A stretch of 64,000 bases of DNA, taken from positions 1,302,001 through 1,366,000 of the forward strand of contig JAQJZZ010000014.1 of NCBI GenBank assembly GCA_030077755.1, in the 5' to 3' direction. Position numbers and translations under genes: made by a program. The notes under the pieces are model-generated. The model searched no databases. It saw only the letters and a program-made list of their open reading frames with translations, and was not told where the DNA came from. The stretch is from Filosporella fistucella (lineage: Eukaryota > Ascomycota > Leotiomycetes > Helotiales). Shown here in pieces: positions 8,186-28,933 of the stretch (position 1 is the first letter of the stretch; each line of letters begins with the position of its first letter).

Positions 8186-11100
8186 ATGCTCCTTCCGTTT
8201 GTCGGCGTCATTTGGAATTTTGCCTTCACGTCAAACCATCTGACATCAACCCAGGATCCAATAAATGCACGCTTCACCACATGTGCACTCCCATACATAT
8301 CTGGAATTCCTGCTGCAGTATCAGCATGTATTGTTCTCGGATTCTTATTCAGAATCCTACCTTGTGGGGTCCTTACCCCAAGATGGACAAAACCATTTGT
8401 AGAAGAACCAAAGGAAACTCCCGAGGATATAAGTATCAACGAGAAGCAGTCTTTCAGACGCCCGACTTGGACCCTTCTTGGCGCTTCAATTGTAGGGCTC
8501 GGGCTCCAGATGCTGACTATCTTCCATCCCACTTTCCGACTGTTGATGGTGTACCCAGCTGCCTCATGGGCAGTGGCATCTCTTCTTATTCTCATTCAGC
8601 GGCCTGTAACCGTCCCAAAATCATTATTGGTACTATACATCAGCATTCTTGCATCCCAATGCATCGTCATAATCGATGGGACGTCTCAGCTTACCCAAAA
8701 TGACATTCCTGCTGTCTTCGCCATCATTACGGCTTTTGCTGCCATTGCGGTCATTCTAGCTATGCCACTTCGAGATCCGTTCTATCCTTCCGATGAGATC
8801 AGTGCTCCTTTCACTGCTCCTAAATCCGAGCTTCGGAGTCCAGAAGATAATATGACATTGTGGCAGTTCATGACCGTCTCTTGGATGGCGCCACTGATTC
8901 GGTTGGGAAATGCCAGGCAGTTGAACGATGATGATGTGTGGGACTTAGGATATGAGTTCAAGCACCGTATGCTACATGACCGGTTCAGAGCGCTGAAGGG
9001 CTCTGTGTTAAGGAGATTGTTGGAAGCTAATGGCATTGATTTGTTGATCATGTCGATTTTAGCTATTGTTGAGTTGATTGCCAGTAAGTTCCAGCCATCA
9101 TCTCGCGGAATGGTTTCTGATACTCTCCCAAGATTTCTCTGCGCCAGTGCTTCTACAGAAGATACTTCAAAGTATGAGTAATCATTTCGCTCCCAAGCGA
9201 GCAGCGCTAAATTATGCCATTCTGTCTGTTGTGGTTCGTCTTATTGCAGCCCAATCAAGTGTCTTCACACTTTGGTTTGGAAGACGTGCGTACGAGCGAT
9301 CACGAGGTGAGATGATAACAATGCTATATGAGAAGACCCTATCACGAAAGGTGGTTAGTGTCAGTAGTAAAGCTATCATCGAGGTGGACCCAGAGGCAGA
9401 AGTGGTACCAAACGGGGTTTCAAAATATGCGGATCATTCAAGACTGGAAAAAATGCAACGTCTTCTTTTGACGCCGTTTCGATGGATTTCAAAACGAAAG
9501 AGGGCGGCAGTAAAGGAGAAAAAGAAAGATTTAGCGTCCATGGGGAAGATCATGAACCTTATGAGGTAAGCTTTTCGAAGCCAAAACATCACCATGCTAA
9601 GACACACTTCAGATTTGATGCGTACGAAGTGGCTCAGAGGTAAATGTTGAAATGCTAACCTCCACAATCCAACTACTTGGCTGACGACCACCAGATTTTG
9701 GGAATTCTCTTCTCTGGTCTCTCAACCTTTGAGTCTCGTATTTTCAGTCGTACTGATCTGGAGACTGCTCGGCTGGCCCTGTCTCATTGGTATTGTTACC
9801 GTCTTTTTCGCTCAAGCTATAAATGCTCTCCTCGCCAAAGCTCTGTTGTATTGGGAAAAGGAGAGAAGAGTTGCGACAGATACAAAGCTTCACAAGATTT
9901 CTCAGCTCGTAGATGCCATTCGCCATCTCAGGTATTATGGTTGGCAAGATGTTTGGCTGGCCAGAATCATGGAATCTCGCCAACATGAACTCAAGCTGCG
10001 GGTAATCACTAGCATTTGGCGTATTCTCATAAGCTTTACAAATACCTTTGCTAGTGGGATGTTTCCAGTGGTGGCTTTTTGGGCGTATACCGTCCTTGCA
10101 GGACAACCATTGCGTGTCGATATTGCATTTCCAGCTCTGCAACTTTTTTCGATGTTGGAAACAAGCTTGAGAGAACTCCCTAATCTCATCACTGTAAGTT
10201 TATACCCGTTCTACTCTCAGCCGTGAACCTACTCATAATCTAGATCCTACTTAACGCGCAAGTTTCGGTCGGGAGATTGGAGGAATTCATGAATGAGCCT
10301 GACAAAGAAGAATCCGATTTTACACCAAGCACAAAAATCGAAATGAAGCATGCCTCGTTCGCTTGGCCGGGGGCTTCAGATCCAGTTCTAAAGGACATAG
10401 ACCTTGCATTCGAGCCAGGGCTAAATGTAATTTGTGGTGAAGTAGGGGCAGGAAAGACGGCTCTGCTCCAGGCGTTGCTGGGGGAACTCGACCAATTGGA
10501 TGGCGAGTACCACAGAACAAATGAAATGGTTGGATATTGCGGCCAGACACCTTGGTTGCAGAGCATGAGTATAAGGGAAAATATTCTCTTCTCAGCACCA
10601 TATAAAGAGGCCCGATATAAGCAGGTTTTGGAAGTATGCGCTCTCATTCCAGACATGGCCAACTTCAAGCACGGAGACTTGTCTATGGTGGGTGAAAATG
10701 GGATCGGCCTTTCGGGAGGACAGAAAGCACGTGTTTCACTTGCAAGAGCAGTATATTCAAATGCAAATATCCTGCTGCTGGATGACCCTCTTTCTGCACT
10801 GGATCACCAAACGGCCGAGTATATCGTCCGCCGATGCCTAGCTGGGCCTTTATTGACAGGTAGAACAACTATCTTGGTGACTCATCGAACCGAGCTTTGC
10901 CTTGGAATGGCAAAGCAAGCAGTTCAGATTACTAATGGGCGAGCATCCCTTATCGATCCTGATACAATTCCCTTCGAGGAGTTACACAGAGTGAAATCAT
11001 CTGACTCTGCGAATGAAGGGGAACACCAAGACGGACAACAGCAAGACGCAGTACCTGACAAGTTTATCGAGGATGAATACAGGGCGCACGGAGGCGTTCA

Positions 11101-12874
11101 GGCATCAGTGTACTGGGAATATATCAAAGCAGGCAAACTAAAGTGGTGGTTTGTTTTGATCTGTGTTCTCGCTATTTACAGGACTATCGAAGTCGGAGAA
11201 ACTTGGTTCCTCAAACAATGGGGTGAAGCATATGGCGACTTTGCAGTTGTTTTCAATGTGGTGGAAGCAGGAAAGCATTGGTTCATTAGGCCATGGGGCG
11301 AAGAATACAGAAGCTCCTCGCTCGAAATAACTCGGTCCGGACCTTTTGGCGACCTTCCCTCGCCGGAGACTAATATCAAGCCTTGGCTTATTGGCTTCTT
11401 CCTTATTGCGGCAGCTCAAGCCATCGCATTCTTGGTCTCTCAGGGTTTCATGCTCGTAATCATCTACAAGGCCGGGAAGAGTTTGTTCGAAAGAGTCATG
11501 TCGAAAGTCACTCACGCTACCTTCCGCTTTTATGATGTTACCCCTGTTGGTAGGCTCATGAATCGCCTCACGTCCGACATAAACACGGTTGATGGAAACA
11601 TTAGCATGCAATTTCAAAATGTTGCGATGCTGTCGATTGCCTGGGTATCGTCCATTGTTGTCATTGGATCAGTGACCCCCCTATTTCTCGTTTTCGCAAT
11701 AGGCCTCACAATTGGATTCGTTGTTATCTTTATGCACTTTCTTCCCACTTCTCAAAGTCTCCGTAGACTCGAGATGGTATCTTTGACGCCACTCATCTCC
11801 AATTTTGGGGCACTGACTGATGGTCTAACAACGATCCGAGCTTTCGCTGCAACATCACGGTTCCAGGATCGAGTGATTGCAGTGACCGATAACTTTCAGA
11901 AGATGGATCATTTCTACTGGAGTCTTCAGTCGTGGCTCATGTATCGCTTTGACACACTCTCCGCCTGCTCAACATTTATTCTCACAGTTCTTGCACTATA
12001 TACTGGAGTCTCTGCTGGCCTTACAGCTTTCGTCCTAACAGCAGCTTCCAAGTTCGTCACTTCAACGCATTCTCTTTGCAAACAGTATGGTCAGCTGCAG
12101 ATGGATTTTGTTTCTGTCGAAAGGGTCGTTGAGCTTCTTCATCTTGAGCAAGAAGAGCCTGGAAAGGTGACTCCTCCAGCGTACTGGCCACTTTATGGCA
12201 GCGACATCGTCTTTGAGAATGTAACGATTCAGTATGCGCCACATCTAGACCCAGCGTTGACTGATGTCTCTTTCACAATTAAGGGAGGCTCAACGACTGC
12301 TCTGATAGGCAGGACTGGATCGGGCAAGAGCACTCTGGCATTAGCATTGCTAGCTACAAATCTGCCAGTGAAGGGAAGGATTCTTATTGATGGCATTGAT
12401 ATTTCGACCGTTGATCTTCAATGCTTGCGCAAACGTGTCACTTTTCTCGCTCAAGAGCCTGTACTCTTTCCTGGAACGATGCGTCAAAACCTCGATCCAT
12501 TGTCCGAATACTCGGACGGCGAATGCAGTGATGTGCTTTCCAAAATTGCCTCTCGACACGAATGGTCACTCAACACCCATATCGACACCGGCGGAAAAAA
12601 CCTCTCACAAGGTCAGCGACAACTAGTAGGCCTCGCGCGAGCGTTGTTGAGGAGAAGCCCAATTGTAGTGATGGATGAGGCTACTGCAAGTATTGACAAA
12701 GAGAATGCAAATCGCATTCAGGAGATTATGAGAGAGGAGATGAAAGAGAGCACTGTGATTACAATTGCGCATAGAGTGGAAGCTGTCAGAGGAGCCGGGA
12801 GATGTGTCGTCCTTGCGAAAGGAAAAGTTGTTGAAGAAGGGGAACCAGGTAAGATGGTGGGGAGGATGGAATAG
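8186..12874 (+). CDS. ABC transporter, ABCC (MRP) full-size type
   Basis: Five exons (8186-9083, 9148-9565, 9613-9639, 9695-10193, 10244-12874) give 1490 aa. Order: TMD0-like hydrophobic start, TMD1, NBD1, TMD2, NBD2. NBD1 has Walker A GEVGAGKT, Q-loop CGQTPWLQ, signature LSGGQKARVSLARA, Walker B ILLLDDP and H-loop VTHR. In NBD1 the residue after Walker B is Asp (LLLDDP), as is usual for the degenerate first site of ABCC proteins. NBD2 has GRTGSGKST, LAQEPVLFPGT, LSQGQRQLVGLARA, VVMDEATAS and IAHR, so site 2 looks fully catalytic. Likely role: ATP-driven export or vacuolar sequestration of organic anions, conjugates or drugs. Exon 3 is only 27 nt. TMD2 contains an apparent short internal duplication (see findings). 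The start at 8186 follows an in-frame stop at 8141; no upstream exon could be joined. Confidence 0.9.
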
Positions 12875-15131: not shown

Positions 15132-16939
15132 TTACACATCAATATAGGCATGAATGTGCCTGTCCTTCACGTCTTTCCTCACATTGACCAGAAATGTCTC
15201 TACCTCCTCTCGTGACCACCCAGCTCCTCTCGTCAGCACAGCCATACTCATGGCCTGCAGGCCGTCTAATAGATTCTGTTGTGTCCCTGTTGATTGTGAG
15301 ATCAGGCAAACCCAATAAAAATGGGATATCTCATTTTATTCCCACTTACACATTGCAGTTAATTTTTCCTTCTTTCCCTTTGGCCAAGTATTCAGTGGCC
15401 AGTATACGTGTTTCTCAACAATATCCACAAATCCTGCTTGTTCCATGTACTTCCCATAATTTTTACTATTTGTTACGCTTCGACCCAATTTGGCGGCCGT
15501 TTCACAAAGCACATTGTTCCACTGTTGAAGAGCGGTGCCTTCTATTGTCGAATCTATACAAGTTATAGGCATTTGAGGGTCTTGAATTTCGAAGTAGCCA
15601 CCAGGACGGAGAACTGAAAAGGCTTGGTGGGTTACCCACTGCAACGAATTAGCACCGCAATTTTTGTTGACAATTTATCAGGCGATCAGGTTGAAACCTG
15701 CTCAGAAGCTGATATACAGCAAAAGCTGGAAGAGGGAACAAATGGAAAGATAGCATACGCATGGGTCTCGAAAGCATGAAAGCATGGCGCGTCCATGAAT
15801 GTAATCAAACTTTTGGGAGTACTGCCAAGGTTCTTCCGCATCATTGACCTCGAAACTACAATTTGGTGGCACGCTGAGGCTAGTCAGCTCGGAGTTACGG
15901 ATTTCGGAGTATGAATGAGCGTACTAGAGTGGCTGTATTGGGCTCAAATCAGTACCGAGGACAGAGGAAGACGGGTATTGCGATGCTGTGACAATCAGCT
16001 ACTGGTTCCAGAGCCAAGCGTTGTATGTTGAGGAGTATACCAAATTCGGTCGCCCATATTCCAGTTCCAGTACCAATATCTAAAACATTGTGTAGGCTTT
16101 CTGGTAATGGAGCAAGATGTAAATGGCCATCTAATGATAACATAAATAAGTGATGTTGAAGATCCAATCTTTCCTGTTCTGCTTCATCGTTGGGTAAAAT
16201 ATATTCTCCGATTCTTGTCAGCCTTTTACTCGCAAAGGGAGGATTATATGTGACATACTTCCGGAATTAAAAGCATGGTATGTCCTCCCATTCTCTTCAA
16301 TATAGCTATTGCTCTAAGTTAGAATTCAAGATAACCCCGCAAGGTGCAGAACAAATTCATTGGAGACATGCCGGTGGAGGAATTACACCCCGCCCACTTT
16401 CTCTTTCGACAAAGGAACTGAACGCAGTATATGACTTACCGATATACACTTTCTCTGACTGATATAGTAGAACTTCTTAAGGAAGGTCAGCAGGGTCGTG
16501 TGTGATGGGCAATATATACTCACAAAAAATCAGTCCCAAGTGCGGAATCGGTATCTCCGCTAGACGACTGAAATCTCTCAGTAAAAGCACTTTCGTGGAA
16601 ACGAAGTAGTAGTACTCACAGCCGAGTCAACCTCCATTCCCGAAGCATCCTCAACAGAATCGAGGCCAGCCTCTCCTATCTCCCCAGATCCCGTGCCTTC
16701 TGCATGCAGGGGCTCTTCTTGGACTGCCGCCTTGGCAGTCACTAAATTGTCTGGATCCCTTTCAGAAGTACCTCCGGTGCCGATTTGCGTATGTGACATC
16801 TGGACCATAAAGTTTTAGCTAGTGTTGAAGTGCCTCGGATGCATGTATCATGCAATACCTCTACTGTGTGTTGCGATGAGTTATGACCCATCAGGTTGCT
16901 GTCATCCTCCGCCGGGTTAAGCACTGAGTTGATGTCCAT
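15132..16939 (-). CDS. LaeA-like SAM-dependent methyltransferase
   Basis: Ten exons on the minus strand (16859-16939, 16620-16799, 16524-16567, 16440-16475, 16259-16305, 16041-16205, 15925-15985, 15759-15873, 15350-15638, 15132-15286) join in frame to 390 aa. Residues 1-90 are acidic and disordered. Then follow features of the fungal LaeA/TAM methyltransferase family: DTDSALG, SVRESVYRY, ENGRTYHAF, LPNDEAEQERLDLQHH, SAM motif I VLDIGTGTGIWATEF, acidic post-I GTDLSPIQP, VPPNCSFEVNDAE, FDYIHGRAM and motif VLRPGGYFEIQD. The C-terminus contains GAGWSREEVE, usual for the family. Relatives act as nuclear regulators or small-molecule O-methyltransferases in secondary metabolism; which applies here is open. 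The first ATG could instead be at 16799 (MSHTQIG). Intron 8 (15639-15758) is an introner-like element; intron 4 is unusually long at 134 nt. Confidence 0.87.
15639..15758 (-). repeat. Introner-like element, copy A (intron of methyltransferase)
   Basis: This 120-nt intron starts GTATGCTATC and ends GCGGTGCTAATTC-GTTGCAG. It contains a hairpin at 15684-15703 (GAGCAGGT-TTCA-ACCTGATC on the minus strand). Almost base for base it matches the intron at 27697-27814 in a TRI12-type transporter gene and, less closely, the one at 24393-24508 in another MFS gene. It sits in phase 0 between TGC and TGG. Branch site CTAAT. Confidence 0.85.
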
Positions 16940-17608
16940 GACTTCTATAGCTTAGAAGTATAATCAGAGTAGGTGATTGATTGAGATTTGATTATATTTC
17001 TATATCATCTGACAAAATTCAATGCCTGTCGTTGCATTGTCGCTAGTCCAAATAGATCTTCATCGTGCTAACATGGGGAAATTTGTGGGTCATCTCAAAC
17101 TCTAATTCAAAGCAGCGTTAGTGTGTGCGGATGTGTTCCAGCTGTGCCTCTCCTTCTTCATCTTTTCCATAGACAAGTTAATCCTCTCAATTTCTAATGC
17201 TACACCTCTCAGTAGAACGGTCCTCGTACGCTCGACTGATTGACTTGTTTTCCTATGTCTGAATAGGGGCTCAAGCGAGAGTCCAGTACAATGATCTTGC
17301 CTCTTGGCAGCAAGATGCATATATTTTTTTCGACCAGGCCAGATAAAGCAACTGAACTCAGCGATTGATATGTTTTCAAAATCAGTTCGAAAGGCTTCAA
17401 ATACTTAGAGTAAAGGCAATATTACAAGCCATGCGGTTACTCAATCGAGGAATCGCCTCTTTCATGACCTCAGTAGCTCGGCTAGCTTCTTAGCTTTGCA
17501 TACTGTACAAGTACGTACCTGGCAATGATGTCATTGAAGAAATATCCTGATACTGCTGGAGGAGAAAACAGAGGTACGATGATTCTTAATCTGCTGCAAA
17601 ACCTCAAA
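16940..17608. other. Divergent promoter region
   Basis: About 0.67 kb between the start codons of the methyltransferase gene (minus) and the phosphatase-like gene (plus). It must contain both promoters. An in-frame ATG at 17525 would extend the phosphatase-like protein by 28 residues but hides its signal peptide. No other gene is seen. Confidence 0.5.
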
Positions 17609-19083
17609 ATGTATCGCCCCATAAATCTTGTCATATTTGCTTTTCTCTCTCAGCTATTTGCTGTAAGCTCAGCTGCTCAGATCCCACTTTTCCGGGAGGA
17701 ATCGCACACGGAAGGGTACAAATTCGACGCGCTCCTTCATCTGCCAGGAATCAGCCCCTATTTTGATGCAATTGGCTCAGGACTCGATCATGGCGCTCCT
17801 CGAAGCTGTGAAGTGACTGCTGCATCATATCTTGTTCGACATGCCGCTATTTATGCCAATGACGATGACTACGAGAGATACATGGAACCTTTTATAAAGA
17901 ACCTCGAAGCCACATACTCCACATTATTAGGGAAGAAGAGGAAGGGTTGGACAGGCCCATTGGAGTTTTTCAAGAAATGGCAAAATCCCATTGACGACCC
18001 GGATAATCAATTGGAACAGATCACCCCACAAGGGCTCAAGGATTCGGAGAAGGTTGCGAAACACCTTCTTTCGAGGTACCCAAAACTTGTGCCAACAACG
18101 AAAACGATATATGCAGACAAGAAAGCCCGCACAGTATGTATGATACAAATCTGCTGATGCTAGATTTAGTTGAGGAGTACCCCATCGCTGATTTTAAATA
18201 GCAAGATACCGCAGCAGCATTTGCAAAAGTATTCCCTCAAAAAGTCGAGATCGTTGAAATCAACCTCAATCGATCTTCATTCCACGCACAAGATCCACAT
18301 AAGGCTTGCAATGCCTTTTCGAAAGGTCCAGGCAATGACGAGCTGGGCCAATTTATGTCGATATATACGAAACCCATCATTGAGCGGCTACAAAAATACT
18401 CCCCTGTGAGCTTAAATGAGACAGATATCATGGGTATGCAGCAGATGTGTGGCTACGAGTCCGCTATTACTGGGAAGAAAAGTGACATTTGCGATGTATT
18501 CACCGATAATGAGTGGATGGCCTACGAGTATGCATGGGATATGAAGTATAGTCACATGGTCGGGCATGGGAACCCATTGTCTCCATATCTCGGGTTTCCA
18601 TGGTTGAACACGACCTCCCAATTGATGACCAAGTTCCATAGCCCTCGACATACTTCTTCACCCGAGATACCAGACGATGATGGTCAGAGATTCTTCCTCG
18701 CATTCACGCACCGAGAAGTCCCCCCATTCATCGCAACCGCTCTCGGTCTTTTCAACTCTTCAAATGCACACGCAGAAGAATTTCCTACAGACCGAATAAA
18801 CTGGAGCAGATCGTGGAGAATGGCAGAATTGATCCCATTTCTTGGCCATGTAGGGATTGAAAAACTCACCTGCAATGTTGTTTCTACAAACCCTGAAGAT
18901 GACAAAGAGTACATCAGAATCATAGCTAATACATCTCCCCGACCTATTCCGAGGTGTCAGGATGGGCCTGGAGGGAGCTGCAGTTTTGACAAATTTGTTG
19001 CTATTATTAATGAAGGCATGGAGATGTACGGCGATTTTGATGGTATCTGTCAAAATGACAAGGTAGATGATCTCAACGAATGA
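17609..19083 (+). CDS. Secreted histidine acid phosphatase-like protein, variant active site
   Basis: Two exons (17609-18133, 18202-19083; 68-nt intron) encode 468 aa. The chosen ATG starts a signal peptide (MYRPINLVIFAFLSQLFAVS). The fold follows branch-2 histidine phosphatases: SCEVTAASYLVRHAAIYAND carries the RH dipeptide near residue 80, then the EQITPQGLKDSEKVAKHLL segment, then the ADKKART stretch, and near the C-terminus FTHREVPPFIATALGLF. In classical acid phosphatases and phytases these two sites read RHGxRxP and HD; here they read RHAAIY and HRE. The nucleophile His and the second His are kept, but the usual Arg of RHGxR and the general-acid Asp are not. Several Cys suggest disulfides (CNAFS, MCGYESA, CSFDK). 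Likely extracellular or vacuolar; activity on phytate or phosphate esters is uncertain. Confidence 0.8.
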
Positions 19084-19256
19084 AAGAATCAGGTGTAGAA
19101 TTTATAAATCATAGATTTCATTTCGACATCTCTTTCTAGGGCGAAGTCCACTTCAGTATGACTGCTAAGCCAGAAACAGCTCCCTCAGCTACGTTTCAAA
19201 CGTCGGCTGGAGATGAATGTCCACAAACAGCTACACCATCAGCGTATTACAGCTTC

Positions 19257-20846
19257 TCAATCATAAGCTGGAAACTTTTCCATCTCTTTATCAGCCTGTG
19301 CCTTGGCATTTGTCAGAGTTGCCAGATGCTCTTGACTTCGAATCCGTATCGAACACTCAAAAGGCTTTGGCCGAATGTTGAATCCATCGGTATAGTCAAA
19401 AGTATCATACTTGCGTGTTGGAAGTATATCAAAAGCCCATATGAGATTGGAAAGTGCAATGAAAAGAGAGTTGGCAGCTAGATCTGCACCAGGACAAATC
19501 CGCCTGCCCCACCCGAAACTTGAATGTCCAGCTTTCGCGGGGTGGATCTTCGATCCTTTGAGCTCTGTAATGTATCTTGTATCCTTCTCATCCAGAAACC
19601 TAGCAGGATTGAAGAGGTGGGGATTGGGGTAGTATTCTTCATTTAGATTGATGGCCCAGGTGTTTCCCAAAATGGTAGTACCAGTAGGGATTCTCCATCC
19701 TTGGTAGACATCATCTTCTGTTGAAGCATGTGGCGTTCCTCCGAGAACAGCGACCGGCCTCCATCTCAGGACTTCCTTCACAAGAGCGCGCAGATAGGGG
19801 AGACTGGCCTCATCATCGAATGTTGGGGTTCTTCCGGTACCAATGACAGCATCCATCTCAGCATGGGCTGTCTCTAGGGCCTTGGGATGGCTCACAAATG
19901 CCAGAATAGCTGAGCACATGCTTGAGGCTGTTGTATCTGACCCAGCACCGAACAATGAGGCAGGTACGAAAGAGAAATCTTTGTCAGGCAATGGGATTCC
20001 TTCCTCGTCCCGGACTTGGAGTAATGTCTGTGCAAGGGATGGTGCTACTGCGTGTCCCTTCTCTTTTCCGGTCCGAATGTCTCGTTTGACATCCTCCACG
20101 AGCTCCAAATTAGCAGCAGTCTCTGTTTGGGCATGTTCTTGAATTTCTAGCTTCCATGGTGCTAAGAAAGTTGGTACATGCTTCAAAATAGGAAAGGATT
20201 CCGCTTTGTATGCCCCGGGAACATTCAGAGACGCCATAAACTGCATGAAATCCAAGCGTTGACGAATGACCGGGGAGTCCAGAGAATCGATGCGATGACC
20301 GTACGATATGGAGAAAACCACGCTTGCAGTGAACCTATCAAATGCGCGTTCCCAATTGTCGGGATTCTGCATCACCTGAAAAGCTAGGCGAACAGCTTCA
20401 GCTTCTTGACGAGCACGGTAGGTACGGAGAGCAGCTGGCGTGAGAGCTCGGTGGAGAAGCTTCCGTCTGAGTGACCACTCCTTGCCGTATGGCTGTACAA
20501 GTACAGATCCGGTATTGTACATCTCGCCCATGACAACGAATCTTGGGCGGGAAGAGTACTTGTTACTCCGTTTCTCCATCAGATCCACAGCAATATGGGG
20601 GTCCGATAGAACCAAAGTTGGTCTTCTGCCGACCCATATCGTAAATATTGGGCCATATTTCTTAGACCATTCTTGAAACTGTATCCAGGGTTTGGAGCTG
20701 GGTAACTTGTTGCCAATGAATGGGAGAGGAATGGGACCTGGTGGCATGCGTGACCAGACCCAAATATCATTCAGAAGGATCAATATAGGTAAAGCTATAA
20801 TTCCTGCCCATGTGTACCATGAGAAACATATTTCCAGAATAGACAT
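19257..20846 (-). CDS. Cytochrome P450 monooxygenase
   Basis: A single exon encodes 529 aa. An N-terminal membrane anchor (AGIIALPILILLNDIWVW) is followed by the proline hinge MPPGPIPLPFIGN. The I-helix oxygen-activation motif is AGSDTTAS, the ExxR motif is in KEVLRW, the PERF-like region is FNPARFLDE and the haem-binding loop is FGWGRRICPG with the cysteine ligand. All core elements are present, so the enzyme should be functional, anchored in the ER membrane and dependent on a P450 reductase. The general look is of fungal CYP families that hydroxylate aromatic or polyketide substrates (OrdA-like), but the family cannot be fixed by eye. It lies convergent to the phosphatase-like gene, 173 bp away, and upstream of an FAD monooxygenase on the same strand. 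Confidence 0.93.
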   Translation of the reverse strand: MSILEICFSWYTWAGIIALPILILLNDIWVWSRMPPGPIPLPFIGNKLPSSKPWIQFQEWSKKYGPIFTIWVGRRPTLVLSDPHIAVDLMEKRSNKYSSRPRFVVMGEMYNTGSVLVQPYGKEWSLRRKLLHRALTPAALRTYRARQEAEAVRLAFQVMQNPDNWERAFDRFTASVVFSISYGHRIDSLDSPVIRQRLDFMQFMASLNVPGAYKAESFPILKHVPTFLAPWKLEIQEHAQTETAANLELVEDVKRDIRTGKEKGHAVAPSLAQTLLQVRDEEGIPLPDKDFSFVPASLFGAGSDTTASSMCSAILAFVSHPKALETAHAEMDAVIGTGRTPTFDDEASLPYLRALVKEVLRWRPVAVLGGTPHASTEDDVYQGWRIPTGTTILGNTWAINLNEEYYPNPHLFNPARFLDEKDTRYITELKGSKIHPAKAGHSSFGWGRRICPGADLAANSLFIALSNLIWAFDILPTRKYDTFDYTDGFNIRPKPFECSIRIRSQEHLATLTNAKAQADKEMEKFPAYD

Positions 20847-21655
20847 TGTCTGGAGACGAGATCAATTGGCCAAAATATGCGAATGCGTGATATCGAAAGA
20901 TTTCAAGGTTTCTGTGAGGCAGATGTTTATAGATGTGTAGCTGGAGAATGGTGGAAGTGCAGCCCTTGACAGCTAGATATGAGGTGTAATCAACCAGCCG
21001 TCGCCAAGTCACAGGCTTGTCTGACGGGCTTTACAGGGGATCCTGCAGCATAAGGTAGCGTTGGTGGATTTCCGGGGCCCGACAAAAGCCCTAAACCCAT
21101 TACCAATCCGGGGAGGAAACAAGTCGGTACTTCTGTTTTCTGCGAGCTGCATCATTAATTCATCTGGAGTTGTACACTATCGGCAATTATTCACGGCAAA
21201 TAATTCATCTCTCACACACTGTCGATGTTGGATATTCGAATCGCAAGTATGGCTTAAGATAGTGTTATTACCCTGCTAATCGTTCATCGCTGGCCATGAC
21301 TGCATCAGAACGTATCACTCAAAATTGTCGGTACTGCCAATTCTCTGCGCTGATGCGATAGGTACCTATCTTGGTGTTCACTTCAAGCCCTCTGACTATT
21401 GTTCATACACGCCTCGCAGGACATATTTACATTTTCGTTGATTGTGTTCTTCTTTTGGGTAGAGTTATACTTTTCTAAGTACTTGCGGCTTCGGAATTTA
21501 TTCAAAAAGTTCTGCGCACCCAATGTTTTTCAGATGTGACAAGGTCAATTTGGTGTCAAATGGAGAAAGGTCAAGCAGAATTGGGAAAAAACCCCCCCAT
21601 ATAGTATTCTTTTCTGAAAGTGCCCACGGTATCGGTACCAAACCCCCCTCTCTCC
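20847..21655. other. Intergenic region with dispersed 18-mer
   Basis: About 0.8 kb upstream of the P450 and downstream of the FAD monooxygenase. It contains a copy of the 18-mer CCTGCAGCATAAGGTAGC at 21042-21059, found again at 46482-46499. No gene is supported. Confidence 0.5.
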
Positions 21656-23013
21656 CTATGCAGTCGCTGCGACCTCAGCCCTGGGAGGCAAGTTGAACTG
21701 CCTGACCGCCGTTGCATCATTCAAAAGCGCCGCCGTGCCAGCATAATTCTTCTCTGCATACTCCTCCGCGTCAAAGTTCAGAAGCCAGTCTTCCCGCTGC
21801 AACTTCATACTTTCAGGGTTCTTTTTCGCCTCATCCCAATTGGCTTTGTGCCACTGGTCGCGTGTTTTCTCTCCTGTCTTTTGGGCTGCTCGAACTCTTT
21901 CGTACCTCAAAGCCTCAAAACAGCCCACTGCTTCCTGGACATGATCTTTCCCACCTCGAGAAAGACACACAGCCATGGTCACACCATCTTCCATAGCTTG
22001 CGAAGCACCTTGAATTGAGGTGGGTAAGAACGGATGAGCAGCATCTCCAATGAGGGCAATGCGGCGTTTTGGAGAGATCCAAGTACTCAGAGGATCTCTG
22101 TAGACCAACTTCCAGTCTATGAGAGGGTCGGGAGTGGCAGCCAGAATTTTCTGGACAATTGGATCCCATCCCTCGAGCACTTTTCTGGCATCTGACAAAG
22201 GTGCATGCGCTTGCCAACTTTCTTCTACATCCGCATCATCCTAATAGAGTCAGTTCTAAAGGAAGCAGCCTTTGGCGTATTGAATACCTTATGTGTGCAA
22301 ACCCAACTGAAATCCTGCCCATTTTTAATTGAAGCAGCAATGAAATGGACATCAGGCCCAAGCCACGCGCAATGCTTGTCTCCATTCGTCACCATCCAAG
22401 CTGTGTCAGGGTCTTCTGCTAGCTTAGATGAGTCGAACCAGGTTCGATAGATTGCGTATCCAGATGCTTTTGGTTTGTCTTCATAACCAAGTACAATGGT
22501 TCGACCCTTCGAGCGGACGCCATCTGCTGCCAGAACAACATCGGCGACAAATCTCTCACCATTTGCAATAACCCCAGCTTCTCCGTCTGTTTCAAAATAA
22601 TCCTCCACTTTGTGACCCAAACGGATCTCAACCCCTATTTCTAGAGCATGTTTGTAAATGATCTCGTGAATCTCTCCTCGATGACCATTGTATGCCTTGC
22701 CAAAAGATAGTTCCTCTTGCTTCCAAGTCTGTTTGGTCAAGGTATCTCCTTTCCACGTCTTAATCAACAATCCGTCAGATTTGTGAATTATGGGATCCAA
22801 AATTTCATCTACTCCTGGCCACTTCTGAAAGATTCGTCCAGAATTCGGTCCGAAGCTGATTATATCCCCGAGTAACTTGAGCTCAGGGAAGGATTCCAGA
22901 AGCAGTACTGAATGACCTTTACGATGGCATTCGATCGCCGCTGTCAACCCAGCAAAACCTGCTCCCACAATAATGACACGGATTCCAGACGGGGTATGTT
23001 GTTCGATAGTCAT
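21656..23013 (-). CDS. FAD-dependent monooxygenase, salicylate hydroxylase-like
   Basis: Two exons (22288-23013, 21656-22240) with a 47-nt intron encode 436 aa. The N-terminal dinucleotide-binding fold reads VIIVGAGFAGLTAAIE, the group A flavoprotein DG motif is LAADGVRS, and the second FAD motif is IGDAAHPFLPTSIQGASQA. These mark a single-component, NAD(P)H-using class A flavoprotein hydroxylase. Substrates in the family are usually hydroxylated aromatics or polyketide intermediates. I start at 23013 because the mature Rossmann fold begins 16 residues later; an in-frame ATG at 23121 would add an unsupported 36-residue extension. With the P450 downstream it could form a two-step oxidation pair. 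The C-terminus after the FAD motif is of normal length. Confidence 0.9.
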
Positions 23014-23842
23014 GACGGCAGAGAAGAAATTGAAGTACTGCTGTTTTTGATTCAGTTTGTCCAAAGATGTCGTCGTATATTTAGTTCGGCTCGGAGATAT
23101 AATGCCGCGAAGACATCGCAATCATCCGATCGAATCGTAAGTTAAAGGTCCTTGCCAATGGCGGGATTTGTCGCCATCCAGAATATCGGGGAGTTCCATA
23201 CTCGAGTAACACAATTCGAGGATCGTTCGTTGAGTTCGGAGGATTGGGCGGGGAGGAATAGGTCCAGAGTGGATGGTACAGTACCCTACTGTAGCCGAAC
23301 ATCCTGTACATATCTAGGTATCTAGGACAGTCCACTAAATTACCCCATCCTCATCCCCCACAATCGACCTTGAACACCTTGAACTGTCTTCATCCTTGGC
23401 ATAAGATTGCAACGACACTTGCAGAGTGCATATGCGGCGATTATTATTATTGTATGTCTGCAAATTGCATCCAAATTGGTCCGTCTGCAGCCATCATCGG
23501 CAGACACTAAAACCATTCTGATTCAATTGCCGGGGCTTCGGGAGAGGCGTGTCACTTCCGCGCCTGTAGAATGCAGCGTTGCAGCCACAACGGCAGAAAT
23601 GTCAAGATATTGAAACATCTTCAGGGATGCTGGCACGTCCTCATCAAACTTTGAGCTGGGGATGTATTCTGGCAACAGGGAGATGTCCTTTAAGTTTGTT
23701 GATTGTCCCAAGTGGAACTTTAATCATCTTTTTACGGAGCTATTGCTCATCGACTTGCTGCACTGTTGCTAGTATAAAATTTTCGTCTCATCTTTGAGGT
23801 GGCGATAGCACTTATCACCTTCACTAATACCGCTTCGACAAT
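23014..23842. other. Divergent promoter region
   Basis: About 0.83 kb between the FAD monooxygenase and the second MFS gene, which are divergently transcribed. It must contain both promoters. No gene, repeat or RNA is recognisable in it. Confidence 0.5.
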
Positions 23843-25851
23843 ATGGGGTTCGGGATTTTGGACGACAAGCGAATGGAGCATGTCCCAGGGACGGGTGAGT
23901 GTTTTTACCATTTGAAGGTATATCAATAATCAATTGACGATATGCAGCTTGCATGAACGATCAATCAGATGTACCTCGCGAATATGAAGATGTTCCTCGA
24001 GAAATGTTGAAGCATGCGAAAGGCAGATATTCACATGTCATTTTGGTCCCTCAACCATCGGATTCTCCCAATGACCCATTGAACGTGGGTACTTATATGA
24101 CACATGAAGTCCTAGCTAACATTGTCAGTGGTCCATATGGCAGAAAGACGGCATGCTTCTTATCGTCGGTCTGTCTGCTGCAGTAGTCGGTGCTTTCGGT
24201 CCTATGCTCTCTCCAGGATTTGTCTTGATTGCATCTGAACTCAACATTAGCATTAATACCTTGGCTCAATCTACCGCATGGCTTATCCTCTGCATTGGTC
24301 TTTCACTCTTCCTTGCTAATCCTCTTGCGAAAGTATGGGGCAGGCGACCAGTTTTCATTATTGCCATCGCAATTATGTTTGCCTGTAGCATTGTACGCAG
24401 CCGTTCCTTTCCCTTCCCTCCTAAACTTTGCGTAAAGAAGCTTCCGAGCAGACTTCAGGCTGCTCGTTTGATGAAACGATGACTGATTGAGGTGCTAATG
24501 CATTGCAGTGGGGAGCGATGAGTAAGAATTACGACTCTTTTCTCGCAAGCCGAGTCGTCTCCGGCTTTGGAATGGCACCATACGAGGTGCTTGTTCAATG
24601 TATGATAGGCGATTTGTATTTTGTTCATCAAAGGGCTACAAGGATTGCTTTGTGGAATTTGTTCCTCTTGTGTGGTATTGCCGGCGGAAGTCTGATTAGT
24701 GGGTATATCATCGAGGTTGGTGCCACTGATCCTTCTAGGTGAAAAGGATCTAATAAATTTAGGATCTGGGTTGGAAATGGACCTTTTGGATTTGCGCAAT
24801 CTTCTTTGGAGTCTTCATCATTCTGGTTATCTTATTCATTCCGGAAACGGCCTATGTGCGCACACCACTTAAGGCAAGAATTGGGAGCAGTAATGGCACA
24901 TCAGAAAACGAGAAAGCTTCCTCTACGATTGAACAAACAGAAAAATCGGAAAACCCATTGTCTGATCAGCAACCTACAGTCGAGCAGAAAGAATCATATC
25001 TCAGCTCCATTCGCTTCATGACAGGAAAGAGATATACACATGCGCCGTTCTGGAAAATCCTCATCCGCCCAGTCGCGATCTTCTGGTACCCAGCGGTACT
25101 TTGGGGCTTCCTCATATATGGAGTTACATTGACGTGGATTGTGGTCTTCAGCGTCGTCAATGCTTCTATCTTCAACAAAGCTCCATATAATTTCAGCGTC
25201 TCTGAGGTCGGTCTCATCAGCATATCGCCATTTCTGATGACACTGGTTGGTGAAGTTGTCTCTGGGCCATTAAATGACTGGATCTGTCTTTATCTGACCA
25301 AGAAGAACCATGGCATTTACGAGCCGGAATTTCGCCTTGTGTTAATGTTTCCAGCTTTATTACTCGGGGTTGTGGGTTTCTTTGGATTTGGTGCTACCAT
25401 CCATTATCAAACGCATTGGATCGGGCCTGTATTGTGCTTTGGTTTTGCAAACATGGCTGCAGCTTTCGAAACGGGATGTGTATTTGGTTATGTGATTGAT
25501 TCATATGAGGATTTGAGCGAGGAGGGTATGTAGCAATGATTCCCATGAATGGCGGGACTGACGTTTCGCAGCCTTCGTTGCAATCAACGCTCGAAGTCTA
25601 CTCACATTCGGCTTGACCTACTTCGTCAATGACTGGTTGGAGAAAAGTGGTGTTCTCAACGTTTTCAATGTTCTTGGTAGCACATTCAGTAAGTGCCTAG
25701 TGCAAAGCCTTCCATCTATGAAGGTGTGAAAGCTGACAATTTTCAAGTTGCCGTAGTTTTATTGACAATTCCGCTCTGGATATTTGGAAAGAAGATTCGT
25801 GGAGCAATCGCACGTAACGTCGCTCTCACCGCATTCATGAAAGATGATTAG
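23843..25851 (+). CDS. MFS transporter (fungal DHA1-like)
   Basis: Seven exons (23843-23894, 23948-24084, 24129-24392, 24509-24715, 24763-25525, 25572-25688, 25748-25851) give 547 aa. The start MGFGILDDKRMEHVPGT is the N-terminal signature of a large ascomycete MFS subfamily, as is VLVPQPSDSPNDPLNW at the membrane entry (here ILVPQPSDSPNDPLNW). Loop 2-3 reads NPLAKVWGRRPVF and membrane segment 4 includes SRVVSGFGMAPYE. About 12 membrane segments are predicted, with a hydrophilic central loop rich in Glu, Lys and Ser. The C-terminus ends shortly after the last helix. Likely role: proton-coupled export or import of a small organic compound; the family includes polyamine and drug transporters, and the substrate is unknown. 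Intron 3 (24393-24508) is an introner-like element. Confidence 0.88.
24393..24508 (+). repeat. Introner-like element, copy B (intron of MFS gene)
   Basis: This 116-nt intron starts GTACGCAGCC, is pyrimidine-rich in its first third, and ends GAGGTGCTAATGCATTGCAG. The hairpin at 24446-24465 (GAGCAGAC-TTCA-GGCTGCTC) is the counterpart of those in copies A and C. It is the most diverged copy but keeps the length, hairpin position, branch-site block and phase. It sits in phase 0 between ATT and TGG. Confidence 0.75.
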
Positions 25852-26679
25852 ATTCAATTTCAACTGCCAAAGTCTGGACAAAGTGGATGGAAATCTAGTC
25901 TGAGGATCTCACTACAAGATCATTGGTGGAATTATATCTATCGATTCATCAAATCACTTATTGGAAAAACTTCAAAGCCCTTCTCAAAATGGATCTTGCA
26001 TTATCCCACTTTCCTCAATCCTTTTCGCGAGCACGTATGTATGTCACTCCTCGCTCCCCATGATTCCTTTTTCTGCAGGCACCAGGCTCAACATTCTCTT
26101 GTCTCCATCCCACTTCCCAGTTCTGACACTTCACGATCTGCCGATCTTACCGATCGTGTCAGAAGGCAGGAGCTGTATCCAAAGTATCGGATTGCACTTG
26201 TAATTTTGGGGGAAACCCGACCACAGTACCTAGTACCCCACACAAGACTTCCCCGCACAACCCCTTTACTAGCTCGCATTTTGACAGCATCTTCCCGTCT
26301 CACTTCCTCCCCGATAAACCGAACTGTTCTTGTAAGAGCGCTTGGAAGCTCGACTGACGAGTGAGATATCTGCCGACCACGCGCGACTCAGATGTGGCGG
26401 GGCCATGCAAGATGTGGAGGTGTATCAGGCCGCGCTAGTTGTCAGCTATAGAAGACATGTGAACGAAATAGTCCAAAACGAAGCTTTTGAATTGAAATGG
26501 AGGATAGTTGCCGAGCGGAAAGCTAGCCGAGATGGGGACAAGAAGGGTCTAAGAGGGAGGTTGTCCGGCAGCCTGGATGGCCGAGATCTGCGTATTTGCA
26601 TAAGATGGGACGTCTCTTCTATCGTCTTTGGTTAATATTCGGACAACACTGTATCCTATAGTGACTGACAACTTTCACA
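25852..26679. other. Intergenic region, no gene seen
   Basis: About 0.83 kb between the two MFS genes, which are in tandem. Short overlapping frames on both strands have no coding character. It holds the terminator of the first and the promoter of the second. Confidence 0.5.
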
Positions 26680-28933
26680 ATGTCTAAGATGGAAGAAAGC
26701 ACGATTGAGCCTGCAAAAGCCGACACTGATTATGATGTAAATCAAGTTGAGCAGGCAAACAGGCCGCCCATCATCAAGATGGACTCGTATAGAGATGATC
26801 ATCATATCAACTTGACATGGAGATCGTGGATGGTAGTTTTGTGAGTACCTACTATCTTGATACTTGACTTTGCTGACCTTCCATAGCGTAACATGCTTTG
26901 CGTAAGAAACGGTTTCCCGTGGCAAGGGACATACTCTTAACTTATTTAGAATTATGGCACAGGTCTACGTTGTTGTGGCTGCTGGTTCAGTCATTGGGTT
27001 CATTATTCGGGATCTCGGAGACCCAGCTATTGCAGGTTGGATCATTCAGGTATCTTTCATTACTCCAGTGTTTCCATATCACAAGTTCTTAACACCACTC
27101 TAGGGACCACTTCTCATGCAAAGTGTCCTTTCTCCCATCGTAGGACGACTTTCGGATGTTGTAGACAGAAAATATCTTGCGATGGGGCCTCCGGCGATAT
27201 CCTTCATTGGCGCAATCATATCAGCAAAAGCGACTTCGATGACCATGCTCATTGGAGGTGGTATTTTGATTGGCTGCACGCTTTCTACTATCTCCATTGT
27301 ACAATCAATTCCCTCCGAAGTCCTTCCTCTGAAGTTTCGTGCACTGGCGAACGGATTTGCTTTTCTTGGAGGTGCCGTCGGTGGGTTGTCAGTATCCAAA
27401 GCCATGCCTCTAAGAATATGTTGCTAATTAATCGTAGAGTCGGGAGTTTGGGAGCAGGAGCAGCTACAAATGCCAGCGCCAACGGATGGAGGAACATCTT
27501 CTGGATTCAAGCCGGTTTCTTTGCTGCCACTGTACTAGGACTTCTTTTCTTCTATCATCCGAAGAAAGATTCAGAGTTTCCTAAGATGAGTTGGAAGAGT
27601 GTAGCATGGGCTTGCGATCCTATTGGCTCTTTCTTGTTCATTGTCAGTGCTACTTTGATGCTCCTCGCTCTTGCTTGGGCAGGTGGAGCATACGCTGTAT
27701 GCTACCTTTTCCTTTATTCTCCCTTCCATATTTTGCTGTGATTCAGCTTCCGAGCAGGTTTCAGCCTACTCGCCTAATAAAATGTCGACAAATTGCGGTG
27801 CTAATTCACTGCAGTGGAGTGATGCTCATATCGTCGCACCATTGACGATCGGCCTTGTTGCATTGGTAGGGTTCGGGATATACGAATGGAAGGGACGAGA
27901 CGACGGGTTGATTGCACATGTATTCTTCAAGGGAGGCCCGAACTTTGCCCTATCAGTCTTTGCTTTCGCTGTCGAGGGGTTTGTGAATCTCCAGCTCTTG
28001 GTTGACGGATCTGACAATTCGCAGGTGGATCTTCTACAGTGCAGTCAATAGTGTGACTCCTTTGATCGTCCTCAACCTAGGATTCGAGACTGATGCATGG
28101 CGCATCTCGATTCGACAATTGTCTTATACTTTGATCACTCTCGTTGCCTCCATACCTATCACGTAAGTTTGACATCACGGACATTGAGACTTCTCTGATG
28201 GTTTTAAGGCTGTACTCGACTTGGAAGAAAGATCTCAAGAGTCCTCTTATACTGACATTTGGAATTTTCCTCATCGTGTAAGTCGTTGTCTGAGAATAAC
28301 TGAAGGAGATGGTGCCTGATATTTCATAGCACAATTTGCTACGCATGCATTAAACCTAGCTGGAACCATGCCCAACTTGGCCTTAATGTTTTATGTCAGT
28401 ATCTCATCCCCTCCACGATAAACCATGACTGATAGCCCAAAGCTGGAATCGGACAATCAGGACCACTGACTCTCCTTGTTGCCCTTGTTCAATTCACCGC
28501 GCCTCACGCCTATCTTTCCACTGCGACTGGACTGGCATTCTCGGCCAGAGCTCTCGGAGGAGCATTTGGGTCCGCCGTTCTGAATACCATCATAAACGGT
28601 AAAATTGCCTCTGACTATGCGCCCTCTGTTTCAAACGCGGCTGTAGGAGCTGGACTTCCAAGCTCTTCCGTACCAGCGTTGCTGGAGGCATTTGCCACTG
28701 GGGTGGGTTTTGATAGCATCCCAGGCGCTGATGGACCCATTCTCGCTGCTGCCACTTCTGCCAGTCAAAACAGCTTCGCTGCTGCTTATCGCTTAGCATG
28801 GGCGAGTATTATTCCTTTCGTAGTTTTAGCACTCGTGGCAATTTTCTTTACCAAAGGTGTGAGCGAATTGATGACCGAGCATGTTGAGGCTACTGTTGAA
28901 AAAGACGAAGTGCCAGAGAAGTCTGTTGTTTAG
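26680..28933 (+). CDS. MFS efflux pump, TRI12 family
   Basis: Ten exons (26680-26840, 26887-26901, 26950-27049, 27104-27384, 27438-27696, 27815-27978, 28025-28162, 28209-28277, 28330-28394, 28443-28933) join to 580 aa. The segment HHINLTWRSWMVVFVTCFA begins helix 1; loop 2-3 reads GRLSDVVDRKYL; then GWRNIFWIQAGFFA and the DHA2-like extra helices give about 14 membrane segments, ending in KGVSELMTEHVEATVEKDE. These features match the fungal trichothecene-efflux-pump (TRI12) family of proton antiporters, which also includes siderophore and general drug pumps; family membership does not mean a trichothecene substrate, and no trichothecene genes are in the window. Exon 2 is only 15 nt. The last acceptor is an unusual CAAAG. 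Intron 5 (27697-27814) is an introner-like element. Confidence 0.88.
27697..27814 (+). repeat. Introner-like element, copy C (intron of TRI12-type MFS gene)
   Basis: This 118-nt intron starts GTATGCTACC and ends GCGGTGCTAATTCACTGCAG. Aligned by eye with copy A (15639-15758, opposite strand) roughly four of five positions agree over the full length. The hairpin at 27752-27771 reads GAGCAGGT-TTCA-GCCTACTC. Phase 0, between GCT and TGG. Confidence 0.85.

Follow-up and report, generated by a model that had tools for sequence, protein, structure and literature searches.

Three introns within one 64,000-nucleotide stretch of the Filosporella fistucella genome (hereafter the window) resemble one another in genes of different kinds, which raises the question of how one intron came to be present in all of them. 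The initial annotation regarded these introns, here called A, B and C (Table 1), as copies of one sequence in unrelated genes. Both statements hold: all three are copies of a single sequence of about 118 nt, at exactly the positions it gave, and Pfam assigns their hosts to different families, a methyltransferase, an MFS protein and a TRI12 protein. All three start with GTAYGC, have AGCTTCYGAGCAG in common, contain GGTGCTAAT near the 3' end and finish with TGCAG. With gaps counted, identity is 82.6% between A and C, 71.2% between B and C and 68.0% between A and B. A profile built from the three copies matches only A, B and C in the window (E 4e-36, 7e-34 and 1e-32), the next match having an E value of 1.5. 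Other introns are mostly 41-72 nt long, as had been noted; 40 ordinary introns predicted by pattern have a median length of 53 nt, the prediction being limited to 82 nt. That the copies are spliced we infer from the spliced reading frames and from the continuity of the encoded domains. We assign all three to an introner family dispersed through this fungal genome.

Table 1. Positions in the window of the three intron copies, their branch-site-like motifs, the adjoining TGG and the reading frames that cross the junctions.
Feature	Position	Strand	Remarks
Introner copy A	15639..15758	minus	120 nt; host Methyltransf_23 (Pfam) gene
Copy A branch-site-like CTAAT	15648-15652	minus	by motif only
Copy A exon 2 start TGG	15636..15638	minus	Trp codon, phase 0
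Introner copy B	24393..24508	plus	116 nt, diverged; host MFS_1 (Pfam) gene
Copy B CTAAT	24495-24499	plus	by motif only
Copy B TGG target	24509..24511	plus	Trp codon, phase 0
Introner copy C	27697..27814	plus	118 nt; 93% identical to copy L010; host TRI12 (Pfam) TRI12-type MFS gene
Copy C CTAAT	27801-27805	plus	by motif only
Copy C TGG target	27815..27817	plus	Trp codon, phase 0
Open frame across A junction, intron removed	15339..15923	minus	55 codons upstream, 100 downstream
Open frame across B junction, intron removed	24120..24739	plus	91 codons upstream, 77 downstream
Open frame across C junction, intron removed	26950..28048	plus	249 codons upstream, 78 downstream

A profile search of the genome returned at least 65 matches, a lower bound, in 60 sequences (277,480 bases). 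Of these, 54 score above 50 bits and are referred to as strong copies. A 23-mer was found at 30 places in the genome with at most two mismatches, and the whole of copy C, used as a pattern, at 33 places; reversed-pattern controls of the three pattern searches gave no match in the genome. The family is thus genome-wide, which excludes a chance resemblance of A, B and C as well as the outcome that the initial annotation had named as refuting, a profile finding these three copies only. As expected for a fungus, neither the viral nor the prokaryote contig collection contained an exact match to the central 32-mer (0 and 0). When host peptides in three frames were compared by BLASTP at E 1e-4, 51 of the 65 copies found had host contexts without any link, and the remaining 14 were involved in 10 linked pairs, three of which are two copies within one gene. 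The linked hosts include three MFS genes and, labelled by motif, what we take to be three sugar-transporter-like and two permease-like genes. Hosts outside the window matched GH16, intradiol dioxygenase and GH1 proteins in the PDB, and a class IV aminotransferase and an ABC transporter in Pfam; no match was obtained for host L059 in the PDB or for host L019 in Pfam. The suggestion that all copies lie in accessory genes applies to the three hosts in the window, but genome-wide the copies also occur in metabolic and membrane genes.

The tree of the family is star-like and places A, B and C far apart, with most inner branches weak and the bootstrap not settled. The closest relatives of A and C are on contigs other than theirs, and for B no relative exceeds 73%. 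The tree and these identities lead us to reject the local spread proposed in the initial annotation. Recent spread, its other proposal, is supported only moderately. The highest pairwise identity does not exceed 94% with gaps counted (97.2% for the best pair when gaps are ignored). Again with gaps counted, 11 of the 54 strong copies are at least 90% identical to a neighbour and none is at least 95% identical. These values are below the 98-99% reported for active introner-like elements (ILEs). From its shape, the family looks as if a few master copies had produced the others. Contig C13 carries 14 of the 54 strong copies where 4.4 are expected (p 8e-5), a count that includes A, B and C, which prompted the analysis.

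What is copied is a complete intron of spliceosomal type, about 118 nt long (GTATGC ... GGTGCTAATTCGYTGCAG) and equipped with both splice sites; copies were read as single GT-AG introns. Splice signals are retained while the rest of the copies decays. In 29 older copies, with ends allowed to shift by up to 4 nt to GT/AG, conservation is 0.97 each for the donor G and T, 1.00 for the branch C, T and A, 1.00 for the terminal AG and 0.73 for the body. With the profile ends unmoved, GT is found in 50/54 and AG in 54/54 strong copies. Three within-copy comparisons of 6 bases for a target duplication were no better than shuffled pairings (p 0.97, 0.87 and 0.35), and no clear terminal inverted repeat was seen, only 6-nt, one-mismatch matches between the consensus ends. 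Fungal ILEs are expected to have a stable predicted secondary structure; folding gave a z score of -2.8 for the consensus of this family and a mean of -1.3 for the 20 best copies. The consensus has two putative hairpins, a central one (CGAGCAGG/CCTGCTCG) and one around the branch site (GCGGTG/CGCTGC); 87.3% of their cells pair, as compared with 30-54% for slid positions. These hairpins show 0 compensatory changes and 14 further pair types, against 16.3 in shuffles. The central hairpin tends to have fewer of its pairs left in weaker copies, so that the hairpins may be inherited from the master copy only. A conserved RNA structure as transposition signal was set aside, RNAalifold predicting no pair.

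The strongest feature of the family, new here and missed by the initial annotation, is a TGG target on the 3' side of the intron. Among the 54 strong copies, the intron is followed by T in 54, by TG in 50 and by TGG in 44, and the counts are the same with ends exactly as the profile places them. None of the 40 ordinary predicted introns is followed by TGG (Fisher p 3e-17 versus the copies). The upstream coding flanks, taken as background, contain 416 TGG in 20,034 nt (binomial p 2e-64). By score, and with ends again free to shift by up to 4 nt to GT or AG, TGG follows 23/24 copies of at least 90 bits, 9/14 of 70-90, 12/16 of 50-70 and 4/11 below 50, and the terminal AG is present in 24/24, 14/14, 16/16 and 10/11, respectively. 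A weak copy at L026 1654-1768 (16.9 bits), found later and part of no model, is again followed by TGG. The 12 bases upstream of the insertion have no consensus in the 54 strong copies, 10 of which lack TGG. Since most copies lie directly before TGG, these spreading introns seem to choose their landing place; insertion into seemingly random exonic sequence does not match 44/54 TGG against 0/40 for ordinary predicted introns.

After removal of the intron, at least 25 open codons flank the junction on both sides for 46/54 strong copies in sense, as compared with 19/54 in antisense and 1132 of 3000 random removals. Some copies may lie outside exons, as the 25-codon frame is not clear on both sides in 8/54 strong copies and 38% of random removals also pass. 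By codon usage, a weak guide here, the best frame is in sense upstream of 44/54 and downstream of 38/54 copies; both sides are in sense with the same phase in only 22/54 and with different phases in 10/54. Phases assigned by codon usage to 30 confidently framed TGG copies are 21/7/2, where about 9.7/9.4/11.0 are expected (p 2.5e-5). Open frames give 17/6/5 for 28 copies, with or without TGG. This phase skew is not what a target of three bases would by itself lead one to expect.

The element is missing from the same position in intron-less paralogues of the A, B, C and L011 hosts, the comparison being with paralogues only. All 16 paralogue sites come from alignment rows that reach across the junction, which the other rows do not; absence of the intron is therefore a matter of selection, and only the codon identity and the missing gap are informative. 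TGG is already present at 11 of the 16 sites, including all 11 for B, C and L011 (3/3 for B, 2/2 for C, the nearest C paralogue being 63% identical). The other five, all paralogues of A, have P, S, S, A and S at the site and no TGG (0/5); at about 50% identity they do not fix the ancestral codon. All 16 alignments cross the junction without a gap; in one, a gap of two residues follows 17 residues downstream. The tryptophan is also present in the three PDB alignments listed for each of L035, L023 and L039. One identical site is filled by the element in three diverged MFS paralogues (L011, L012 and L026). Between L011 and L012 the introns are 91.5% identical, the exons 68.6% and 66.5% (DNA) and the proteins 32%, and the L026 intron belongs to the other young group. 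We count this common site as an apparent case of repeated insertion. The 54 strong copies in mostly unrelated genes, the conserved splice signals and the intron-less paralogues bear out the initial identification of introner-like elements.

Taken together, we consider it likely (probability of roughly 0.8) that this is an introner family that inserts seamlessly, in sense and directly 5' of TGG, probably via RNA. Targeted insertion would pick TGG on the sense strand of coding exons, and multiplication would proceed through RNA. The excised intron might be joined 5' of UGG, or reverse transcription of the intron might start from a primer strand that has CCA-3', complementary to TGG, at its end; the product would then be fixed in DNA. 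Once inserted, a copy would act as an ordinary intron and decay. A more specific version is put forward tentatively, and we would not bet on it at even odds: a family that multiplies by RNA-mediated, sequence-specific insertion, its excised intron being attached to the sense strand immediately 5' of UGG/TGG and the target being read on the 3' side only. If true, it would be a spliceosomal counterpart of targeted retrohoming, with tryptophan codons as the main birthplace of introns and with independent hits on one site in diverged genes. A search for a U5 snRNA, with its loop pairing with UGG in mind, gave no match, and the same search was also blank in all 14 control genomes, which makes the negative result uninformative.

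The same copies could also be DNA-level, non-autonomous transposons, that is, MITE-type introners moved by a TGG-preferring transposase or nuclease with a blunt cut and no duplication. A short fixed target is usual among transposases, and the eight strong copies without a clear frame on both sides fit such an element. Most introner families outside the ascomycetes are reported to bear DNA-transposon marks (PMC9860276, available part). However, no target duplication is found, the consensus ends share only the short imperfect matches described above, and the copies lie mostly in sense open frames, whereas a DNA element should leave many between genes. We regard this explanation as unlikely. Still less probable is that insertion was random and TGG was retained later, CAG followed by TGG being needed for splicing. 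TGG directly 3' of the splice site in 23/24 of the best-preserved copies is what it would require, but TGG becomes rarer in weaker copies while AG persists, pre-exists at all 11 intron-less sites of B, C and L011, and follows none of the ordinary predicted introns.

If instead the element brought its own TGG, each insertion would add one tryptophan codon. The other residues in the five A-site paralogues agree with this, but the absence of any junction gap in 16 alignments, the TGG already at 11 of these sites and the tryptophan in the listed PDB homologues of L035, L023 and L039 make it very improbable. Hardly any credence is left for copies moved by gene or segmental duplication, or alike by chance. 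Some hosts are indeed related (the 10 linked pairs), but three of these pairs are two copies in one gene, 51/65 copies have no link, introns at the common MFS site are far more alike than the exons around them, and the reversed-pattern controls are empty.

The origin of new introns is a long-standing question, and the mechanism of fungal introners is unknown, partly because their insertion sites have been described as random. A short fixed target and a junction free of duplication make the chemistry of insertion more accessible to study. Candidate TGG targets can be listed in advance and filled and empty sites compared between strains, and a changed target in a reporter could test reverse splicing versus nuclease-primed reverse transcription. 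TGG targeting also predicts sites of repeated intron gain, which bears on shared intron positions that are read as common ancestry.

Group II intron retrohoming, where the intron after excision enters a short fixed target next to its end, is an analogy only. Its target pairing is mainly with the 5' exon, unlike the 3' signal of the TGG family, and 118 nt is far too short for a ribozyme or an encoded protein. In searches of open-access PMC papers we found no introner family with a TGG target; the first descriptions of ILEs (van der Burgt 2012, Torriani 2011) are covered only through the papers cited here. The DNA-transposon-like introners of algae and other protists are dispersed intron copies enriched in genes, according to the available part of PMC9860276. 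Many of them have target duplications and/or inverted repeats, neither of which marks the TGG family, and some co-opt a splice site whereas the TGG family carries both. The sister [D1,2] stwintrons and cropped sister introns of Hypoxylaceae and Xylariaceae are inserted seamlessly with no target duplication in the available text of PMC8469720 and PMC12403724, as are the copies found here. In PMC8469720, sister stwintrons are functional on the coding strand only and have no phase bias; these texts also report internal symmetry and no bordering-exon pattern. The present family differs in its bias towards TGG, in its excess of phase 0 and in showing no clear symmetry of its ends. The available text of PMC8469720 also gives fungal ILEs seamless, seemingly random exonic insertion sites, unlike the TGG mostly found on the 3' side of our copies. 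The ILEs of Dothideomycetes (Fulvia fulva, Dothistroma septosporum, Zymoseptoria tritici) are complete introns multiplied in unrelated genes that decay towards ordinary introns, with parallel gains and 98-99% identity of active elements reported in the part of PMC4457414 available. Hundreds of near-identical copies are expected of fungal ILEs. Those found here, at least 65, are fewer and differ more from one another, no pair exceeding 94% with gaps counted. With no duplication or clear inverted repeat, they are, like those ILEs, complete introns that occupy unrelated genes and decay.

Introns A, B and C of the window lie where the initial annotation placed them, and comparison confirmed its view that they are one sequence copied into different genes. 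Each excision leaves an open frame, and the proposed hosts are supported by junction-spanning Pfam matches to Methyltransf_23 (A), MFS_1 (B) and TRI12 (C). Within the window, a three-copy profile matches A, B and C only. Judging from its sequence, the region around the host genes resembles a secondary-metabolism region.

Positions of introns, neighboring reading frames and further intron copies. L-numbers are sequences fetched from the same genome, in local coordinates.
Feature	Sequence	Position	Strand	Remark
Intron A	window	15639-15758	-	
Intron B	window	24393-24508	+	
Intron C	window	27697-27814	+	
ABC transporter frame	window	10277-12874		near A/B/C hosts; Pfam
Cytochrome P450 frame	window	19257-20846		near A/B/C hosts; Pfam
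FAD oxidoreductase frame	window	22225-23121		near A/B/C hosts; Pfam
Long open frame	window	41421-44426		1001 aa; no Pfam match at E 0.001
Long open frame	window	44466-45896		476 aa; no Pfam match at E 0.001
Copy pair	L025	1501-1621, 1956-2051		one strong, one weak
Copy pair	L021	1501-1609, 1740-1853		one strong, one weak
Copy pair	L052	1369-1485, 1996-2115		one strong, one weak
MFS element	L011, L012, L026	from 1501		
Second MFS copy	L026	1654-1768		decayed

We searched the genome (45.77 Mb, 19 contigs) five times, with flanking bases in none of the queries. At least 30 places matched a 23-mer (up to 2 mismatches), at least 33 matched copy C, at least 38 a 3'-end 22-mer and at least 37 a 5'-end 23-mer (both up to 3 mismatches), and a near-consensus query returned at least 41 rows. 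Reversed controls of the three pattern searches found no place in the genome. From the union of these results we took a set of 60 sequences, the window among them, with 277,480 bases in all; in this set a 31-copy profile gave 65 matches, a lower bound for the family. Across the genome the family extends far beyond A, B and C, contrary to the refuting case of just three copies named in the initial annotation. Matches above 50 bits (54 of 65) form the strong set, and the 11 weaker ones were tallied apart. One fetched place, L065, had no match with this profile and scored 10 bits in a later profile scan. Contig C13, which carries the window at 1302001-1366000, is 8% of the genome yet holds 14 of the 54 strong copies (p 8e-5; the window's three included). 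Four weak copies (in L021, L025, L052 and L026) were met by chance in DNA flanking strong copies; there may therefore be many more decayed copies that the searches missed. The L025, L021 and L052 pairs, each with its two copies a few hundred bases apart in a single locus, suggest either favored genes that are repeatedly hit or a large hidden store of decayed copies. Among the hosts of all 65 copies, BLASTP linked 10 pairs, three of which are two copies in one gene.

The exon directly 3' of the intron starts with T in 54/54 strong copies, followed by G at +2 in 50 and at +3 in 46; the full TGG is found in 44. The T, TG and TGG counts are unchanged when intron ends are left exactly at the profile positions, and the 12 bases 5' of the 54 introns show no consensus. 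TGG starts the exon in 0/40 ordinary introns, which were predicted from the same DNA by pattern and frame without RNA support. Upstream coding DNA beside the copies has 416 TGG in 20,034 nt (binomial p 2e-64 for enrichment). The late-found second L026 copy, part of no model, again lies directly 5' of TGG. By descending score class, from at least 90 bits, TGG follows 23/24, 9/14, 12/16 and 4/11 copies, and AG ends 24/24, 14/14, 16/16 and 10/11. Since TGG frequency peaks among the best-preserved copies while AG persists, a landing site that mutates later suits the data better than a splicing signal.

Four host peptides used as queries found paralogues, many matching unbroken across the junction and others not. 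We fetched 16 from the unbroken matches, so that their lack of the intron reflects how they were selected. All 16 align without a gap at the junction, and insertion thus appears neither to add nor to remove sequence; in paralogue L078, two residues are gapped 17 residues farther downstream. TGG occupies the intron-less site in 11/16 (host C 2/2, B 3/3, L011 6/6, A 0/5). Judged from the B, C and L011 paralogues, TGG was present at the site before insertion. The same Trp occurs in the homologous protein in each of the PDB matches listed for L035 (GH16; 3 listed of 19), L023 (intradiol dioxygenase; 3 listed of 7) and L039 (GH1; 3 listed of 169); the first ~17 residues of the L035 query are inexact and lie outside the matched part.

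Three diverged MFS paralogues, L011, L012 and L026, carry the element at one identical point, PIGLF|WFAW, and L026 has its second copy a short distance downstream. Between L011 and L012, intron identity is 91.5%, against 68.6% and 66.5% for exon DNA and 32% for protein, a difference hard to reconcile with common descent. Independent insertion explains it, with gene conversion as a possible alternative; the L026 intron falls in the other young group. The family tree has a star-like shape, and most of its inner branches are weak. C sits inside a supported seven-copy group with the fetched copy L010, A adjoins a supported nine-copy group and B is isolated on a long branch; these separate positions speak against the local spread proposed initially. 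No pair of copies reaches 95% identity, gaps counted.

Open frames in sense surround 46/54 strong copies, compared with 19/54 in antisense and 1132/3000 random removals. By codon usage alone the case is weaker: the upstream side reads in sense in 44/54, the downstream side in 38/54, and both sides in the same phase in 22/54. Phase 0, expected in about a third, accounts for 21/30 confidently framed TGG copies by codon usage and 17/28 copies by open frames; five of the seven phase-1 copies among the 30 lie inside an ATG codon (A|TGG). In older copies, with ends free to shift up to 4 nt to GT or AG, conservation is 0.97 for GT, 1.00 for branch-site C, T and A, 1.00 for the terminal AG and 0.73 for the body, which points to selection for splicing. 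With ends unmoved, GT is found in 50/54 strong copies and AG in 54/54. No target duplication was detected: six-base matches within copies did not exceed shuffled pairings for 5' flank and intron end (p 0.97), 3' flank and intron start (p 0.87) or flank and flank (p 0.35), and the consensus ends showed no more than 6-nt, one-mismatch inverted matches. The copied unit is one complete intron with a one-sided 3' target, placed mostly in open frames in sense. Multiplication probably passes through RNA, because a DNA element should leave many intergenic copies as well. The one-sided target would fit either of two routes: reverse splicing with recognition of the 3' exon, or reverse transcription for which a nicked strand ending CCA-3' serves as primer.

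Ascomycete introners are described in PMC9860276 as having neither target duplications nor inverted repeats, and likewise our family has no detected duplication or clear terminal inverted repeat. Parallel gains of introners have already been reported (PMC4457414). Unlike the fungal introners and stwintrons whose integration sites are called seemingly random exonic in PMC8469720 and PMC12403724, this family mostly lies directly 5' of TGG. On this comparison, it belongs with introners, its target specificity being new relative to these papers.
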